A DNA stretch of 61,785 bases, from IMG/VR virus record IMGVR_UViG_3300027816_000110, positions 1-61,785 of that record. One strand, given 5' to 3'. The notes below the pieces were generated by a model. The model saw nothing but the letters and a program-made list of their open reading frames with translations, had not been told where the DNA came from and did no database searches. A program made the translations under genes and the position numbers. This stretch comes from a virus. Every line of letters begins with the position of its first letter. The stretch's first letter is position 1. Shown in pieces: positions 32,199 to 57,733 of the stretch.

Positions 32199-32335
32199 TT
32201 CTCAAGAAGGGATTCGAACCCTTGCCGCATCCGTTTACCTGCATGACATACGTTGAAACTCCTACAGTTTTAATGATGGTCAAGCTCCCCATCTTTTAAG
32301 TCATATTTCGCCTTCGACCACTCAGCCACTTGAGA
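32199..32335 (-). tRNA. tRNA-like gene, class II, possible Leu(UAA), with ~47-nt insertion
   Basis: Minus strand. TCTCAAG/CTTGAGA is a perfect 7-bp acceptor (two further pairs possible outside). The D arm GCT-GAGTGGTCGAA-GGC and T arm AAGGG-TTCGAAT-CCCTT are canonical. The anticodon stem can be read as TATGA/TCATG around CTTAAAA (anticodon UAA), but about 47 nt are inserted 3' of the anticodon. They hold two hairpins: GATGG/CCATC and AAACT/AGTTT. The gene is 137 nt, almost the same as the neighbouring tRNA-like gene. The insertion is far too short for a group I intron. Identity is uncertain. Confidence 0.48.
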
Positions 32336-36934: not shown

Positions 36935-37150
36935 CTACATATTAATTCCGTATTCTATTGCTCTCATTTCATCTATGTCACCATCCTTGGTTAATATCCC
37001 GACCTCAATTAGTCGGGATGCCATCCGTCCGTAATGACCTTGTAACGACCATGCGCTACCATTTTTTACAAGTTCAGAGAACATGTATACCATCTCTGCA
37101 CCATCAAGCATCCCGCTCTCGTATGCGATTATTCTGTCTATCGTGTCCAT
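36935..37150 (-). CDS. Hypothetical protein, 71 aa
   Basis: Starts MDTIDRIIAYESGMLDGAE. It contains MFSELVKNGSAWSLQGHYGR, a pattern I recall in small phage proteins, then ASRLIEVGILTKDGDI: a helical bundle with a winged-helix-like turn. Function unknown. Confidence 0.75.
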   Translation of the reverse strand: MDTIDRIIAYESGMLDGAEMVYMFSELVKNGSAWSLQGHYGRMASRLIEVGILTKDGDIDEMRAIEYGINM

Positions 37151-37440: not shown

Positions 37441-37665
37441 CTAAAATGTTAGTTTATCAAATTCATGAAACATGTCTATCTTGTCATTCGGAAATCTATC
37501 CGTTAACGCTCTGAACAAATCTTCGTTCGTGTACTCCTCATATCCATCTCGTTCTGCGTTTACGATTGGTTGGATGACTTCAGCGATTTGGTCATCGTTC
37601 AAGGTAGTTAATAGATAGAAGTCTTCTTCATTAAATGCTGTTGTGTTGATTCTAATTACTCTCAT
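37441..37665 (-). CDS. Hypothetical protein, 74 aa
   Basis: Starts MRVIRINTTAFNEEDFYLL. Small alpha/beta protein, acidic, with EEYTNEDLFRALTDRFPND near the C-terminus. Its ATG follows hammerhead ribozyme A by 18 nt (leader CCAATAAAAACTTAGAACAA), so after self-cleavage it would head its own message. Confidence 0.72.
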   Translation of the reverse strand: MRVIRINTTAFNEEDFYLLTTLNDDQIAEVIQPIVNAERDGYEEYTNEDLFRALTDRFPNDKIDMFHEFDKLTF

Positions 37666-37683
37666 TTGTTCTAAGTTTTTATT

Positions 37684-37740
37684 GGTTAAGACAGCACCTT
37701 TGGAGTGCTGTTTCGATTATTTAAATCTCGTCAGTTAACC
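37684..37740 (-). ncRNA. Hammerhead ribozyme A (type I)
   Basis: Minus-strand RNA: stem I GGUUAA/UUAACC; core CUGACGA; stem II GAUU-UAAAU-AAUC; GAAA; stem III ACAGCAC/GUGCUGU with a 7-nt loop; then the cleavage triplet GUC, cutting between plus positions 37690 and 37689. All invariant core residues are present. The UAA stop codon of the 75-aa gene lies in stem I. Confidence 0.93.
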
Positions 37741-37962
37741 TTGGTGAAACATGCTCTCCTTGAATCGAATCAATTGACCCTCCTCGTACTTGAGTAGGTC
37801 GTCTAGCTTGTCTCTGTCAACGGATATTATTCCGTGTATCGGGTGCTTGATGTCGTTGATGCCAACGAATTGCTTGTTGCGAATCAATTGCTCTCTGATT
37901 GTCAATTGTCTGATAGTGCCTTCCGCCTTGTGAAAGCCTACGTTGTTCATTCTCTTTTCCAT
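37735..37962 (-). CDS. Hypothetical protein, 75 aa
   Basis: Starts MEKRMNNVGFHKAEGTIRQ and continues with LTIREQLIRNKQFVGIND and a HPIHGIISVDRDKLDDLL helix. Small basic protein without a known family. Its stop codon (TAA, 37735-37737) is part of stem I of hammerhead ribozyme A, so translation and ribozyme folding overlap. Confidence 0.72.
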   Translation of the reverse strand: MEKRMNNVGFHKAEGTIRQLTIREQLIRNKQFVGINDIKHPIHGIISVDRDKLDDLLKYEEGQLIRFKESMFHQG

Positions 37963-37967
37963 AATTT

Positions 37968-38108
37968 CTATTTGTTATATACCTCGTCTAATTGGTAGCC
38001 GTAACGCTTTTGCATGTAAGCTACGTAGTTATTAAAATGTTGTTCGTTCTCAAATTCCTTCGTGATGATTATCTGCTCTCTACGATGGTTAAAAAATACT
38101 AGTATCAT
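37968..38108 (-). CDS. Small hypothetical protein, 46 aa
   Basis: MILVFFNHRREQIIITKEFE then NEQHFNNYVAYMQKRYGYQL, ending DEVYNK. Starts in an ATGA overlap with the previous small gene. An alpha/beta mini-protein of unknown role. Confidence 0.62.
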   Translation of the reverse strand: MILVFFNHRREQIIITKEFENEQHFNNYVAYMQKRYGYQLDEVYNK

Positions 38109-38215
38109 CGCGCTCTGAATGGAATTAATAATCTCTTAGTCTTAACTAATGTTCCGTTTAGAAAGAATCCCCATACCTCGAAGTTCCCTTCAATCTTTAA
38201 GATTTTTGTGCTCAT
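38105..38215 (-). CDS. Small hypothetical protein, 36 aa
   Basis: MSTKILKIEGNFEVWGFF then LNGTLVKTKRLLIPFRAR. First gene after hammerhead ribozyme B; its ATG is 18 nt from the ribozyme end. It overlaps the next gene by 4 nt. A short beta hairpin-like basic protein; function unknown. Confidence 0.58.
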   Translation of the reverse strand: MSTKILKIEGNFEVWGFFLNGTLVKTKRLLIPFRAR

Positions 38216-38232
38216 GGCTATTAAATTAAATT

Positions 38233-38287
38233 GGTTAAGACGTGACACGTAGTCACGTTTCGGTCATTGAGACCTCATCAGTCAACC
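38233..38287 (-). ncRNA. Hammerhead ribozyme B (type I)
   Basis: Minus-strand RNA: stem I GGUUGA/UUAACC (one G-U pair); core CUGAUGA; stem II GGUC-UCAAU-GACC; GAAA; stem III ACGUGAC-UACGU-GUCACGU; cleavage triplet GUC, cutting between plus 38239 and 38238. The stop codon UGA of the 54-aa gene is the UGA inside the CUGAUGA core. Confidence 0.95.
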
Positions 38288-38442
38288 TCGTTGATAAATT
38301 TCTTTGCCTCATCTAATGTCATGTGTATACCACATGCATCAAATCCATCCGCATCGACAATTATATATCTGTCTTCTGTTTGAATCTCGCCAGTATAGTC
38401 ATATTGACCTTTTTCTAAATAAATTTCTATTGTGTAATACAT
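38278..38442 (-). CDS. Small hypothetical protein, 54 aa
   Basis: MYYTIEIYLEKGQYDYTG then EIQTEDRYIIVDADGFDACG and a helix MTLDEAKKFINEVD. A well-formed acidic alpha/beta mini-protein. It begins 17 nt after hammerhead ribozyme C and its stop is inside hammerhead ribozyme B. Function unknown. Confidence 0.7.
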   Translation of the reverse strand: MYYTIEIYLEKGQYDYTGEIQTEDRYIIVDADGFDACGIHMTLDEAKKFINEVD

Positions 38443-38459
38443 GATTTCTATGTTTTATT

Positions 38460-38516
38460 GGTTAATACGGCATCTTGTGAATGCCGTTTCGAATACTAAA
38501 TTCTCATCAGTTAACC
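38460..38516 (-). ncRNA. Hammerhead ribozyme C (type I)
   Basis: Minus-strand RNA: stem I GGUUAA/UUAACC; core CUGAUGA; stem II GAAU-UUAGU-AUUC; GAAA; stem III ACGGCAU/AUGCCGU with 7-nt loop; cleavage triplet GUA, cutting between plus 38466 and 38465. GUA fits the NUH rule. The ribozyme begins on the last base of the stop codon of the 37-aa gene. Confidence 0.93.
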
Positions 38517-38629
38517 TAAATGTAAATCGGTGGAACGTGACCTGTTATGATTTGGTAGACGGCATATCCAATACCGAACAAAATACCAAATGCTAAACTG
38601 CTTGTCCAAACTGCAAATACTACTTTCAT
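38516..38629 (-). CDS. Small membrane protein, 37 aa
   Basis: MKVVFAVWTSSLAFGILFG then IGYAVYQIITGHVPPIYI: a single membrane helix. First recognised coding gene of the minus operon. Its leader (AACCATTTAAATTTATAGCC) is nearly the same as that of the 36-aa gene after ribozyme B, yet the expected ribozyme position is taken by a different structured element (38653-38699). Function unknown. Confidence 0.6.
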   Translation of the reverse strand: MKVVFAVWTSSLAFGILFGIGYAVYQIITGHVPPIYI

Positions 38630-38652
38630 GGCTATAAATTTAAATGGTTAGT

Positions 38653-38699
38653 GCCGTGCTGAGTTTCGCTCTCAGTTAATGACTCATAGTCAACACGGC
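38653..38699 (-). ncRNA. Three-way-junction element in the ribozyme position
   Basis: GCCGTG/CACGGC closes a three-way junction with two hairpins, GACT-ATG-AGTC and CTGAG-AGCGAAA-CTCAG. It contains a CGAAAC stretch but no intact CUGANGA core, so it is not a functional hammerhead. It precedes the 37-aa gene in the same way that ribozymes precede their genes, so it may be a derived or replaced ribozyme. Confidence 0.5.
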
Positions 38700-38719
38700 T
38701 ATAATGTACCTTGCACCAC

Positions 38720-39060
38720 ACTTATATAGGTGGAATCGAACCACCACAAGGATATTATCTTTATCTGTAACCTACCATGCGTGAAATAGGAGTAGTCTTA
38801 ATTGCTTTTCAGCTTCCGCTTTTTTGATGTTATCGTAGGCGACGCATGTTCCAAGATGTCAAAGACCGATATTTATTAATCTAATTACTATTCATTGCCT
38901 ATAACACTTTAACCATTTCCCTTTCGGTGTTTATTATCGGTTTCATTTAGACTTTATGCACTAGGCTAGTCGCACCCTTATTTCCGTGTTGTTTTCTAGT
39001 AAGAAGTATTGTTGTTAGCTCGTTTGCTTACATCAAAGTAACGGCAACTGATTGGATTAA
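38720..39060 (-). ncRNA. Gene-free leader of the minus operon, candidate structured RNA with T-arm-like hairpin
   Basis: About 340 nt without a credible frame. Read on the minus strand, it contains a perfect T-arm-like hairpin GGTGG-TTCGATT-CCACC (near 38725-38745) nested in CCTTG/CAAGG. Other complementarities are CATGCGT/ACGCATG (about 38777-38848), CCGATA/TATCGG (about 38865-38940) and AACAC/GTGTT. No acceptor stem or D arm completes a tRNA, and no tmRNA tag frame ends in the usual ALAA-type sequence. It is probably a multi-branched RNA at the 5' end of the early transcript. Confidence 0.45.
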
Positions 39061-41294: not shown

Positions 41295-41317
41295 CCCTCC
41301 AATCGGAGGGTTTTTTT
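41295..41317 (+). terminator. Intrinsic terminator
   Basis: Perfect 6-bp stem CCCTCC-AATC-GGAGGG followed by seven T. It separates the 406-aa gene from the chaperonin operon. Confidence 0.93.
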
Positions 41318-41346
41318 GTTTTTGTCACGAAAATCTGCTATATTTG
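41315..41346 (+). promoter_or_regulatory. Bacteroidota-type promoter for groEL/groES
   Basis: TTTG at 41315-41318, 20 nt gap, then TATATTTG at 41339-41346. Both -33 and -7 elements match the Bacteroidota consensus, overlapping the T-run of the upstream terminator. The GroEL ATG is at 41364, 17 nt after the -7 element. Confidence 0.78.
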
Positions 41347-41363
41347 TGACAAAATATAATAAA

Positions 41364-42932
41364 ATGGTAGTAAAACATGTTCATTTAGGCCAAGATGGCC
41401 AACAAAAGCTCAAGAAAGGCATCAAGACGATCGCTGGAGCAGTCAAAAGTACATTAGGTGCGCGAGGGCGCACAGTATTAATCGAGTCAGAGCACCATGT
41501 GGGTGGTATAACAGTGACAAAGGACGGTGTGACAGTCGCTAAGTCGATAAACCTGTTTGATCCAACTGAGAACTTGGCAGTAATAATGATGCGCCAGGCT
41601 GCCGAGAAGACGGCAACAGTTGCTGGTGATGGTACAACCACATCTATTGTGTTGGCTGAGGCTCTTATTAATTCTGCCGACATACATCTGTCAGATACAG
41701 ACAACGTGACTGAGGTGATAAGAGAGATAAACGACTTAACAAAGGACGTTGTTGCATGGCTTGACAAGAAGAGTAAAAAGGTTAAGGGTAAAAAGCTAGT
41801 TGACGTAGCCACAATAAGTGCAAATAACGACAGAGAGATCGGTAAGATGATCGCTAGTGCGTTTAATGAGGTTGACGTTGTTACTGTTGAGAACAGTATG
41901 ACAAGCAACACATATGTTGAGATAATAAAAGGTATGAAGATCGATCGTGGAATGACTTCTCCTTATTTCATTACGGACCAAAAGAAGCAAGAGTGTGTTC
42001 TTGACAATCCATATGTATTAATATGTGATCATGAGATTAATAACTTGATATCTATAGAGAACATACTAAAGCATTGTGTTGTAAACCAAAAACCACTACT
42101 AATTATTGGTACTTTGGGTCAAAACGCTATGAACACATTAAACCTAAACGTGGCTAAGGGCCAGATCAAGGCATGTAACATACAGCCACCATCGTTTGGG
42201 TACCGCACAAAAGACCTTATGGAGGATATAGCCATCGCAACAGGCGGTACGTTCTTCTCTGAGTCTACTGGTGATGACCTGTCGTTGATAACTGTAGCTG
42301 ACTTAGGTCGTGCCAACCGTATTGTCGTTAGTAAGGGCATGACAGTATTTATGCCAAACGCTGACAGAGCTGAGGATATTGATGGGCAGGTTAATCAACT
42401 AAAAGACTCTCGTTCTGAGATGTCATCTGATAAGGAGCTGCTTGATTTCACAAACGAGCGTATTGCAAACCTATCTGGCGGTGTTGGTGTTATATATGTT
42501 GGTGCACTTAGTGACATTGAGCAAAAGGAGAAGAGAGATCGTATTGACGACGCTGTGTGTGCTGTAACGGCCGCACTTGAGGAGGGTATACTTCCAGGTG
42601 GTGGTATAGCATTAGTTGACGCTGCTTCATCAACGCTACGTGGAGACAGTAAGGCTTGTAAGATAATGCGTGACACTGTCATCGCTCCATTTTATCAGAT
42701 ACTAGTTAACGCAGGTAAGGACCCAGAGGAGATAAAGGAAAACATGTTGCCAATAGAGAACGAGGGGTATGACGTTAAGAACGAGCAGTACGGAGACATG
42801 ATGAAGCTTGGTATTATAGATCCAGCTAAGGTTACTAAGAACGCACTGTTAAACGCAGTGTCTGTAGCGACTACAATAATGAGTACAAATGCAATAATAA
42901 CAAATGTAAGAGCAGATGAGAGTATTAAATAA
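41364..42932 (+). CDS. groEL: GroEL-like chaperonin, 522 aa
   Basis: Full-length 60-kDa-type chaperonin. The equatorial ATP-binding motif VAGDGTTTS and the GARGRTVLIE region are intact. Apical and intermediate-domain blocks (DRGMTSPYF, SGGVGVIYVGA) and the EEGILPGGGIAL segment near the C-terminus are all visible. It lacks the usual Gly-Met tail. The longer frame from 41316 begins with a TTG inside the promoter and is not credible; the ATG at 41364 gives MVVKHVHLGQDG. It would fold phage proteins, most likely capsid, together with the GroES-like partner that overlaps its end by 17 nt. Confidence 0.95.
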   Translation: MVVKHVHLGQDGQQKLKKGIKTIAGAVKSTLGARGRTVLIESEHHVGGITVTKDGVTVAKSINLFDPTENLAVIMMRQAAEKTATVAGDGTTTSIVLAEALINSADIHLSDTDNVTEVIREINDLTKDVVAWLDKKSKKVKGKKLVDVATISANNDREIGKMIASAFNEVDVVTVENSMTSNTYVEIIKGMKIDRGMTSPYFITDQKKQECVLDNPYVLICDHEINNLISIENILKHCVVNQKPLLIIGTLGQNAMNTLNLNVAKGQIKACNIQPPSFGYRTKDLMEDIAIATGGTFFSESTGDDLSLITVADLGRANRIVVSKGMTVFMPNADRAEDIDGQVNQLKDSRSEMSSDKELLDFTNERIANLSGGVGVIYVGALSDIEQKEKRDRIDDAVCAVTAALEEGILPGGGIALVDAASSTLRGDSKACKIMRDTVIAPFYQILVNAGKDPEEIKENMLPIENEGYDVKNEQYGDMMKLGIIDPAKVTKNALLNAVSVATTIMSTNAIITNVRADESIK

Positions 42933-54523: not shown

Positions 54524-57500
54524 ATGGAAAATAGTCTTTACACTATAGTAAATAATCACATACACAAAACTGCATTAACAACAAAAAATGCAAAGAAATC
54601 TTGGACGTATGGTTATCATCCAGATTATGATCTAGTTGTGATATCAAGGGATGGTACTATAGGTGAAATATATGATATAAACGGTGTAAAGATTGCGCTT
54701 CCATCAGAACCAAGCTCATTACATAAAGGTTCAAACAAGTGGGTAGCAGAAGAATATCCATCAGAACTACAGAAGATAAAAACTGTATTTGATTGGAATA
54801 GAAAAGACAATACATTTAAATCAAAGTATGTAGATTATATAGAACAAGAGTTTGACAGAAGAGATTATGGGCATTGGTTTATGAATAACGGTAAGCCAAC
54901 ATATATAACTGGAACTCATTATATGTATTTACAATGGACAAAGATAGATATAGGTCTTCCAGAATTTAGGGAATCTAACAGAATATTTTATATATACTGG
55001 GAAGCATGCAAGGCTGACAACAGATCTTTTGGTATGTGTTACCTAAAGAACAGACGTTCTGGTTTCTCATTTATGTCGTCTGCTGAGGTCTGTAATACTG
55101 CAACTTTAGCAAAAGACGCTAGAGTAGGTATACTGTCAAAGACTGGTAGTGATGCCAAGAAGATGTTTACAGATAAGGTAGTACCCATTGTAAGAAACTA
55201 TCCTTTCTTCTTCAAACCTATACAGGACGGTATGGATAACCCGAAGACTGAGTTAGCGTTTAGGGTTCCAGCAAGTAAGATCACTAGGAGAAACATGGAT
55301 GAAGAAAAGACTGAAGATATTGAAGGTCTTGATACAACTATTGACTGGAAGAATACAGCAGACAACAGTTATGACGGTGAGAAATTACTGATGCTTGTTC
55401 ACGATGAGTGTTACGACCCCGAAACAAATATACTTATGTCTGATTTTAAATTTAAAAAAATAAAAGACATTAATATAGGAGACAAGGTAATTGTTGAAGG
55501 AGGTATTATTAAAACGGTTGTTAAGAAAACATCTGGAATAACAGAAAAATATTTAGTTAGTCAACCTTATGCTAAAGATTATGTAGTAACCAAGAATCAT
55601 AGATTATTATTCAACAGTTATGGTAAAGGAGAAGTTATAATGACTCCAGAGGAATACATAAATAGTTCTAATTGTTTAAAAAGGCATATAACAAGAGTAG
55701 CTTCAAAAGGAATAGAATCAGAGGATTGTTTTGATGGAATACCTCCTTATTTATTAGGTCTTTGGTTAGGTGACGGAAGAAGTAACTCATTTACTATACT
55801 TGTTAATAAAACAGAGGAGCCTGAGATACTTGATTATCTAGGAAAGATGTCTTTAATGATGAATATAGATTTCGAATTAAAAAAATCTACATCCGATAAA
55901 ATAGTTGAATTCTCATTCAAAGGAATAAATAAAGAACTTAAAAAAATAAATGTATATAAAAACAAACATATACCAGAAGATTACATAAAATCATCAATAG
56001 AGTCAAGATTACAACTTTTAGCTGGTATAATAGAAACAGATGGATATTGCGATAAGAAAAAGAAATCTATAGAGATAGGAATGAGTAGAAAAGATTTGGT
56101 GGAGCAAATTAGATTTATAGCGCTTTCTTGCGGATTATCATGTAGTAATATCTCTCACAAAAAAAGTAATTATGATACAGATGTGTATAGAATATTTATA
56201 TCTGGAGATTTATCAATAATACCTTTATTAACAGCTAAAAAATCATTTGAAGGATATCAACCTAAAACAAAAGGAAGAAGAAATAAAGTAAGTGTAAGTC
56301 ATATAGGTTTAGGTGAATATGTTGGAATACAAGTTGATGCAGAAAATGACAATGAAAGAAAATTAATATTAGATGATTTCACATTGAGCATGAATAGCGG
56401 AAAATGGGAGAAACCAGAAAACATCTTAAACAACTGGAGGGTAACAAAGACGTGTCTTCGTTTAGGAGCTAAGATAGTAGGTAAGTGTATGATGGGATCA
56501 ACGTCTAATGCTCTTCCAAAAGGTGGTCAGAATTTTAAGGATTTATACTACGACAGCAGTATATCTAAAAGGTCAGCAAATCATCAAACAAAGAGTGGTT
56601 TGTATTCATTATTCATTCCTATGGAGTGGAACGTAGAAGGATATATCGATGAGTTTGGATGGCCAGTATTTACAGATCCAAGTAAACCAGTGAAGGGTAT
56701 AGATGGTGAGATGATAACTCAAGGCGTTATTACTTGGTGGGAGAACGAGGTAGCCGCATTAAAATCTGATGCTGACGCTCTTAATGAATTCTATAGACAG
56801 TACCCAAGGACTGAGTCTCATGCATTTAGAGATGAGTCTAAGCATTCATTATTTAACTTAACTAAGATATATCAACAGATAGACTACAATGACTCTCTAA
56901 TAAAGGAGAAGTTTTTAACTAGGGGTTATTTCCACTGGAAGAACGGAGAGGTTGATAGCGAGGTTATTTGGACTCCAGATCCTAAAGGTAGGTTTATAGT
57001 TTCATGGATACCTAATCAAGAATTAAGAAATAGAAAAATAGTAAGAAATGGAAAATTTTATCCAGGTAATGAAAGCCTTGGTGCTTTTGGTTGTGACCCT
57101 TATGATATCTCTGGTGTTGTTGGTGGGGGTGGTTCTAACGGTGCTCTTCATGGTGTTACTTCGTTTCATATGGAGCAAAATGTACCGTGCAATGAATTCT
57201 TTTTAGAGTACATAGCTAGACCTCAAACGGCTGAGATATTCTTCGAGGATGTGCTTATGGCATGTGTGTTTTATGGTATGCCGATACTTGCTGAAAACAA
57301 CAAGGCTAGACTGCTGTACCATTTTAAAAACAGAGGATACAGGGCATACTCCATGAACAGGCCAGACAAACATCAGTCAAAGTTGTCTAAAACTGAGATA
57401 GAGATAGGCGGTATACCTAACTCATCAGAAGATATGAGGCAAGCTCATGCATCTGTAATTAACACTTACATAGAGGAGCATGTAGGCTTTGATAACGAGG

Positions 57501-57733
57501 GTACATACAGAGAATCTGGCGTTATAGGATCCATGTATTTTAATAGAACTTTAGAAGATTGGGCTAGGTTTAATATAAACGATAGAACGAAGCACGATGC
57601 CACGATTAGTTCTGGTTTAGCACTAATGGCGATCAAGCGTTACATGTTTTTACCAGAGAGAAAAGAATCAAAAATAAGTATTAAATTTGTAAAATACGAT
57701 AATCGTGGAAGCAGAAGCGAAATAATAAAATAA
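54524..57733 (+). CDS. terL: Terminase large subunit with in-frame intein, 1069 aa
   Basis: The extein (740 aa after removal of residues 296-624) has a Walker A-like RRSGFS near residue 175, a Walker B LMLVHDE ending at residue 295, and a nuclease-like GCDPYDISG near residue 855. The residue after the intein is Ser625 (SGKWEKPENIL), giving HDE-SGKW, which matches crAss-like and Bacteroidota TerL. It packages DNA into the prohead by ATP-driven translocation and cleaves concatemers. It is immediately followed by the portal gene. Confidence 0.95.
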   Translation: MENSLYTIVNNHIHKTALTTKNAKKSWTYGYHPDYDLVVISRDGTIGEIYDINGVKIALPSEPSSLHKGSNKWVAEEYPSELQKIKTVFDWNRKDNTFKSKYVDYIEQEFDRRDYGHWFMNNGKPTYITGTHYMYLQWTKIDIGLPEFRESNRIFYIYWEACKADNRSFGMCYLKNRRSGFSFMSSAEVCNTATLAKDARVGILSKTGSDAKKMFTDKVVPIVRNYPFFFKPIQDGMDNPKTELAFRVPASKITRRNMDEEKTEDIEGLDTTIDWKNTADNSYDGEKLLMLVHDECYDPETNILMSDFKFKKIKDINIGDKVIVEGGIIKTVVKKTSGITEKYLVSQPYAKDYVVTKNHRLLFNSYGKGEVIMTPEEYINSSNCLKRHITRVASKGIESEDCFDGIPPYLLGLWLGDGRSNSFTILVNKTEEPEILDYLGKMSLMMNIDFELKKSTSDKIVEFSFKGINKELKKINVYKNKHIPEDYIKSSIESRLQLLAGIIETDGYCDKKKKSIEIGMSRKDLVEQIRFIALSCGLSCSNISHKKSNYDTDVYRIFISGDLSIIPLLTAKKSFEGYQPKTKGRRNKVSVSHIGLGEYVGIQVDAENDNERKLILDDFTLSMNSGKWEKPENILNNWRVTKTCLRLGAKIVGKCMMGSTSNALPKGGQNFKDLYYDSSISKRSANHQTKSGLYSLFIPMEWNVEGYIDEFGWPVFTDPSKPVKGIDGEMITQGVITWWENEVAALKSDADALNEFYRQYPRTESHAFRDESKHSLFNLTKIYQQIDYNDSLIKEKFLTRGYFHWKNGEVDSEVIWTPDPKGRFIVSWIPNQELRNRKIVRNGKFYPGNESLGAFGCDPYDISGVVGGGGSNGALHGVTSFHMEQNVPCNEFFLEYIARPQTAEIFFEDVLMACVFYGMPILAENNKARLLYHFKNRGYRAYSMNRPDKHQSKLSKTEIEIGGIPNSSEDMRQAHASVINTYIEEHVGFDNEGTYRESGVIGSMYFNRTLEDWARFNINDRTKHDATISSGLALMAIKRYMFLPERKESKISIKFVKYDNRGSRSEIIK
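55409..56395 (+). mobile_element. Intein with LAGLIDADG homing endonuclease, 329 aa, in terminase Walker B
   Basis: Starts with Cys296 (CYDPETNILM block A) and ends in Asn624 (LDDFTLSMN), followed by extein Ser625. The TKNHRLLF block B is present. The centre carries two DOD/LAGLIDADG motifs, YLLGLWLGDG and LLAGIIETDGY. The usual penultimate His at the C-terminal splice site is replaced by Met (MN instead of HN), which may slow splicing. Insertion is exactly after the Walker B glutamate. Confidence 0.93.

Follow-up and report, generated by a model that had tools for sequence, protein, structure and literature searches.

The 61,785-nt viral DNA analysed here (the window, taken as the whole stretch) carries three sequences that are very probably self-cleaving type I hammerhead ribozymes, and that would act as intercistronic processing elements of a leftward, probably early, transcript. 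Judged by sequence, the presence of three hammerheads in the window is confirmed, and the ribozyme fold, its covariation, an intact core, a fixed placement and the avoidance of open reading frames (ORFs) can each be read directly from the letters. The three belong to a large phage family with one layout, in which stop codon, ribozyme, leader and start codon follow each other in register.

Structure of the three hammerhead sites

All three sites lie on the minus strand: site 1 at 37684–37740 (59.9 bits, E 2.6e-15), site 2 at 38233–38287 (55.8 bits, E 4.2e-14) and site 3 at 38460–38516 (56.7 bits, E 2.3e-14). The covariance model that found them (R1) was derived from 54 sequences, all from other contigs and none from the window, and the next R1 match in the window has an E-value of only 0.48. 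A hammerhead descriptor matched three times in the window, compared with one match in total across 100 dinucleotide shuffles.

The sites display the type I topology, which is also that of the 54-sequence alignment, with stem I open and stems II and III closed by loops. Site 1 pairs GGUUAA with UUAACC in stem I, GAUU with AAUC in stem II (loop UAAAU) and CAGCAC with GUGCUG in stem III, and the predicted cut is at 37690/37689, after GUC. The corresponding pairs in site 2 are GGUUGA/UUAACC, GGUC/GACC (loop UCAAU) and CGUGAC/GUCACG, with the predicted cut at 38239/38238, also after GUC. Site 3 is formed by GGUUAA/UUAACC, GAAU/AUUC (loop UUAGU) and CGGCAU/AUGCCG, with the predicted cut at 38466/38465, after GUA; an alternative fold of this site is favoured over the hammerhead fold by 0.8 kcal/mol (−14.7 compared with −13.9 kcal/mol). 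The core and cleavage triplets in the window read CUGACGA/GUC, CUGAUGA/GUC and CUGAUGA/GUA, and GAAA is present in all three sites. On rechecking, the coordinates, strand, core residues, stem sequences and three predicted cleavage positions of the initial annotation were all correct, and its assignment of the sites to the type I hammerheads is borne out by the independently built model.

A widespread family with covarying stems

Among loci collected by pattern, the descriptor identified 316 distinct copies at 206 loci, counts in which close relatives remain, since merging was limited to identical contexts. At none of the 206 loci do copies lie on both strands. The pattern GGTTRACTGANGAG...CGAAAC is present in at least 120 IMG/VR stretches; a strict two-gap pattern matched at least 120 IMG/VR stretches as against 10 stretches in 84,980 bacterial and archaeal species genomes, and a pattern with stems I and III and the greater part of stem II unconstrained likewise matched at least 120 IMG/VR stretches. 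A reversed-sequence control gave no matches. Single contigs can hold long arrays, with eight copies in L006, seven in each of L049 and L197, and eight inside 4 kb in L127.

The covariation that the initial annotation drew from three copies is upheld family-wide. Of the 16 pairs in the 54-sequence alignment, 13 vary on both sides, and 99.9% of cells are paired, falling to 27–37% when the register is slid by 1–3 columns. The covariation score of this alignment is 0.77, compared with 0.15 when shuffled and at most 0.09 when slid, and all three helices covary. The three stem II pairs, whose letters were unconstrained by the search pattern, all form in 223 of 230 core matches, and 216 of the 230 are complete hammerheads with 58 versions of stem I. 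As core-based patterns found the copies, raw core conservation is partly built in; the exception is a set of 23 full structures unselected by any pattern, of which 21 have an intact core and two share an identical change, U to C, at the second core position.

Outside the core, a conserved A flanks stem I on its 5' side (93–98%) and on its 3' side (90–91%), whatever the stem I sequence. Loop II reads UNANU in 117 of 154 copies of the GGTTAA/GATTAA class, mostly from patterns that leave loop II unspecified. Fast hammerheads use a contact between loop II and stem I, and the UNANU loop together with the flanking As suggests such a tertiary contact here.

A recurrent hammerhead variant, seen in L135, L161, G007:8767-8792, G015:6231-6256 and G002:77611-77636, has a single additional base after CUGANGA and ahead of stem II, as in CTGATGATGGATTCAATATCCGAAAC.

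Detection by Rfam

The initial annotation proposed a check against Rfam, and there all three sites score below the gathering threshold. At gathering scores no hammerhead is found in the window, and at a permissive threshold site 1 alone is matched, by RAGATH-1 (RF03152) at 23.8 bits, where the cut-off is 56.3. RAGATH-1 is likewise type I-like and has the same core, but its model has an additional hairpin on the 5' side and differs in stem I. Fifteen multi-copy loci, with dozens of clear copies, are also without an Rfam hammerhead match at the gathering cut-off. The scores are thus below threshold because Rfam is without a suitable model, not because the ribozyme is absent. As a judge of presence Rfam fails across the whole of this family, which exposes a gap in Rfam, and our own model was used instead.

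Placement between stop codon, cut and start codon

The family layout is a fixed register of stop, ribozyme, leader and start. An ORF ATG lies at most 120 nt past the cut in 303 of 316 copies, at a median distance of 24 nt (22 nt in the GGTTAA/GATTAA class); 60% of random positions have an ORF ATG somewhere within 120 nt. For the first 181 copies, 81% of starts fall 15–30 nt past the cut, compared with 9% when positions are drawn at random from the same loci. For the 293 upstream ORFs, the stop lies inside the ribozyme before the cut in 191, at most 20 nt before the ribozyme in 75 and at a greater distance in 26, while one alone stops after the cut. Stops inside the ribozyme peak at two points, UAA in GGUUAA and UGA in CUGA. 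Since just one upstream ORF runs past the cut, cleavage would spare coding sequence. In 21 of the 316 copies the cleavage site falls within an ORF that encodes 80 aa or more, compared with 45% of random positions, and 46 of 107 adjacent copy pairs less than 3 kb apart enclose exactly one ORF.

Some copies in L006, L088 and L127 have a small GGCGAAAGCC-type hairpin between the cleavage site and the ATG, which would sit at the 5' end of the cut mRNA.

The window operon and its leaders

These three sites head a leftward operon that contains exonuclease, helicase and primase genes, and it is from this position that the transcript is taken as probably an early one. A Bacteroidota promoter of the form TTTG-N17..23-TANNTTTG was sought upstream of the operon, and none was found in the region. 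The first gene, on the minus strand as are those that follow (38516–38629, 37 aa, no family match), has a UAG stop that ends on the first base of site 3. Beyond the predicted cut in site 3, a 23-nt leader (38443–38465, UUAACCAAUAAAACAUAGAAAUC-AUG) precedes the 54-aa gene (38278–38442), whose UGA stop lies within the CUGA of the site 2 core. The 23-nt leader released at site 2 (38216–38238) would belong to the 36-aa gene (38105–38215), which is followed by the 46-aa gene (37968–38108), with no ribozyme preceding it, and by the 75-aa gene (37735–37962), whose UAA stop is within stem I (GGU UAA) of site 1. Downstream of site 1 come a 24-nt leader (37666–37689) and the 74-aa gene (37441–37665). 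All three upstream stops in the window therefore overlap their ribozyme. No family was found for the small genes, except DUF7417 for a 71-aa gene at 36935–37150.

The initial annotation described the ribozymes as punctuating the operon gene by gene. This stands for the interval from site 3 to site 2, which holds one gene (54 aa), and fails for that from site 2 to site 1, which holds three (36, 46 and 75 aa). Two of the six small window genes lie in a segment without a ribozyme of their own, and there is none for the genes further down the operon.

Relatives show how far each ribozyme is tied to its gene. Orthologues of the 36-aa gene with upstream sequence are present in 17 contigs; 12 of them have a hammerhead or close variant, with the spacing retained, and four have a three-way junction, described below. 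For the start of the 74-aa gene, a ribozyme is present in the near-twin L102 only, of nine relatives, and the orthologues in L070, L161 and L012 have a similar leader without a ribozyme. As orthologous starts have a ribozyme in some phages and lack it in others, no gene strictly needs one.

In the window phage group, the 3' strand of stem I, UUAACC, is also the first six bases of a generic A-rich start leader. A TAACC leader precedes 54 of 839 ORFs without a ribozyme, a count that takes in spurious ORFs, compared with 11 of 839 control positions, and its form at these ribozyme-free genes is TTAACCAATAAAACCTAGAA...ATG. Because a similar leader occurs alone at ribozyme-free starts, stem I of the window group is best explained as this leader plus its complement. 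In L049 (5500–11703), six examined copies are each followed by a common leader of ~27 nt, AAAAGTSAGNYGCASACTATAACAGGC, with the ATG at 44–45 nt, and this leader is likewise in register with the cut.

Proposed mechanism and alternative readings

Hammerhead cleavage yields a 2',3'-cyclic phosphate and a 5'-OH. In the mechanism that we propose, the ribozyme would sit between the upstream stop, at or inside its 5' arm, and the short A-rich start leader. After the cut, the upstream message would keep its stop codon and end in stems II and III, as two 3'-terminal hairpins, and the cyclic phosphate, while the downstream message would start 5'-OH-UUAACCAAU..., about 23 nt ahead of the AUG. The downstream piece would in this way gain a short unstructured 5' leader, and in the window group cleavage would place the generic leader at the mRNA 5' end. 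Separate stability and translation for each segment would be the likely effect, and we infer both the cleavage in the cell and its influence on stability or translation.

The stop positions also suit a different and rather unlikely reading, in which the ribozymes sense upstream translation. Here, a ribosome terminating at a stop in stem I or the core would block folding, the cut being made only if the upstream gene is poorly translated, with the next gene then released. Both the 191 upstream ORFs that end in the ribozyme before the cut, with their two peaks, and the overlaps at the three window sites fit such a sensor. Tight gene packing alone would give such stops, however, as GGUUAACUGAUGA has stops in two frames, and 101 of the 293 upstream ORFs stop ahead of the ribozyme.

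Circular re-ligated RNAs are known from viroids and retrozymes, and neighbouring ribozymes might similarly excise single-gene RNAs that are re-ligated into circles, although we regard this as very unlikely. Closure would be possible through pairing of the 5' UUAACC of a piece with the GGUUAA close to the 3' end of that piece; the stem I strands are interchangeable among the three window sites, and stem I is identical in 95 of 199 within-locus copy pairs, compared with 20% between loci. Against this, stem I differs between the copies of many genomes (L197, with six sequences in six copies; L192; L188), and being unconstrained in this way it disfavours circular or spliced products. The stem I of the window group is already accounted for by the leader sequence, and spliced or circular products were sought by Perreault et al. 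in 2011 and none were found (PMC3088659).

Little probability attaches to the copies being fossil or neutral elements, that is, once-active ribozymes that were spread with intergenic DNA in the form of repeats and have since ceased to be of consequence. The differing presence at orthologous gene starts, the recurrent extra-base variant and a few broken copies fit such a history, but neutral copies would decay and lose their register with stop and start codons, whereas the core is intact in nearly all of the unselected copies, pairing is almost complete and placement is tightly fixed. That these are hammerhead-like hairpins without ribozyme activity, serving as mRNA stabilisers, terminators or translation elements, is hardly tenable: two hairpins would terminate the upstream product and a translation leader makes up the 3' part, yet the unpaired CUGANGA, GAAA and UH are conserved though needless for a hairpin, and the window sites have no U-tract after stem III. 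The best reading, strongly supported by the sequence evidence, is the processing of polycistronic phage RNA by type I hammerheads.

A second structured RNA at the operon head

A hammerhead before the first gene was considered and rejected, as the stretch is a different, covarying three-way junction (38645–38699, minus strand). Its stems are GCCGUG/CACGGC, UGAC/GUCA and UGAG/CUCA, the last with the loop AGCGAAA (consensus AGCGAWA), and its 3' end is CACUAACCA; the junction directly precedes the first gene, with CACTAACCA and the ATG following. A model, R2, which was built with this sequence, matches it at E 1e-13. Twelve of 15 pairs vary on both sides, and 98.8% are paired compared with at most 56% when slid. 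The junction has no match in Rfam.

About 30 related contigs carry the junction, as a single copy at the operon head where examined. Among 29 independently found junction contigs, 15 also have hammerheads, and six of the 29 matches look false, lying inside coding sequence. A role as a general stand-in for hammerheads was rejected: since each of the genomes checked has one copy, placed at the head of the operon, the junction is not simply another copy type. We regard it as a candidate processing element, either a new cis element or a ribozyme. It is conceivable, though unlikely, that the whole operon is delimited by cutting RNAs, with hammerheads inside and the junction at 38699–38645 as an undescribed self-cleaving class that would leave an equivalent UAACCAAU leader.

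Upstream of the junction, positions 38709–38751 (minus strand) hold a conserved element in which CCUUG...CAAGG encloses a T-loop-like hairpin, GGUGG-UUCGAUU-CCACC. The outer pair is C-G in the window and A-U in relatives (ACTTG/CAAGT). This element is also present in L062, L091, L089, L152, L161 and L135, and its enclosing stem covaries. We rejected a tRNA or tmRNA identity, as ARAGORN calls none there. No gene is obvious from this element to about 39640.

Relatives and hosts

The window virus is a phage of Flavobacterium-type bacteria. Its portal protein shares 61.6% identity with that of an uncultured podophage and 48–50% with those of the Flavobacterium elemo and Maribacter Panino phages. 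A BLASTN search with the region found no match among cultured phages, and relatives were reached via the pattern and the portal protein. The covariance model finds copies in elemo (27504–27447, E 4.8e-12), phi18:3 (21958–21904, E 3.9e-10) and phi19:3 (21817–21769, E 5.5e-10), all sitting in runs of tiny genes, and finds no hammerhead in others, such as phi38:1, Calle_1, Gundel_1, Panino and crAss001. Leaders resembling a Shine-Dalgarno sequence accompany 85 of 146 copies with other stem I sequences, compared with 32 of 170. As these leaders are commoner with the other stem I sequences, the hammerhead family probably reaches beyond the Bacteroidota.

Elsewhere in the window, 41316–42932 (plus strand) encodes a GroEL-like chaperonin, also phage-encoded in the elemo phages and MW202828. 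The terminase large subunit (54524–57733, plus strand) is 1069 aa long, and its middle, at about residues 297–621, resembles an intein or homing endonuclease insertion. An Rfam tRNA match of 35.6 bits at 32199–32335 (minus strand) has a large insertion in the anticodon region and no ARAGORN call, and is possibly an interrupted tRNA gene.

Comparison with known systems and significance

The initial annotation regarded a set of three that punctuates one operon gene by gene as unusual, but both the clusters and the processing idea are already in Perreault et al. 2011 (PMC3088659). That study described and tested clustered hammerheads between prophage genes, among them a triple set around ardA of Agrobacterium tumefaciens that cleaves in vitro and in E. 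coli, and native polycistronic RNA processing was shown for three other clusters (PMC3088659); the processing idea thus has precedent. As in our phages, several hammerheads on the same strand flank single phage genes or short blocks, and ardA is also found downstream of the phi18:3 copy. In contrast to those clusters, the arrays here reach eight per contig and hold to a fixed register of stop, ribozyme and ATG; stem I also serves as a generic leader, and the carriers are flavobacterial and other phages in which Rfam does not detect the element.

HHphage of haloviruses HF1 and HF2 is a hammerhead that lies 13 nt ahead of the start codon of an early gene (PMC3088659). It shares the position just ahead of a phage gene start, but belongs to an archaeal virus, is a structural variant and precedes a single helicase gene. 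Theta ribozymes are self-cleaving RNAs of gut phages with an HDV-like fold and a link to tRNAs (PMC10879173); they are likewise self-cleaving RNAs in phages, but not hammerheads. Among open-access papers we found no literature on hammerheads in flavobacterial phages. The family and its fixed layout look new, and differ from the 2011 clusters as the text of that paper describes them.

What is added here is a widespread, Rfam-invisible family, its fixed stop-ribozyme-leader-start layout and cultured phages that carry it. The purpose of phage self-cleaving ribozymes has been a standing question since 2010–2011, and the family brings to it a clean, repeated architecture across hundreds of phage loci. 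Because cultured phages with laboratory hosts (Cellulophaga phi18:3 and phi19:3; Flavobacterium elemo) carry copies, the function is testable.
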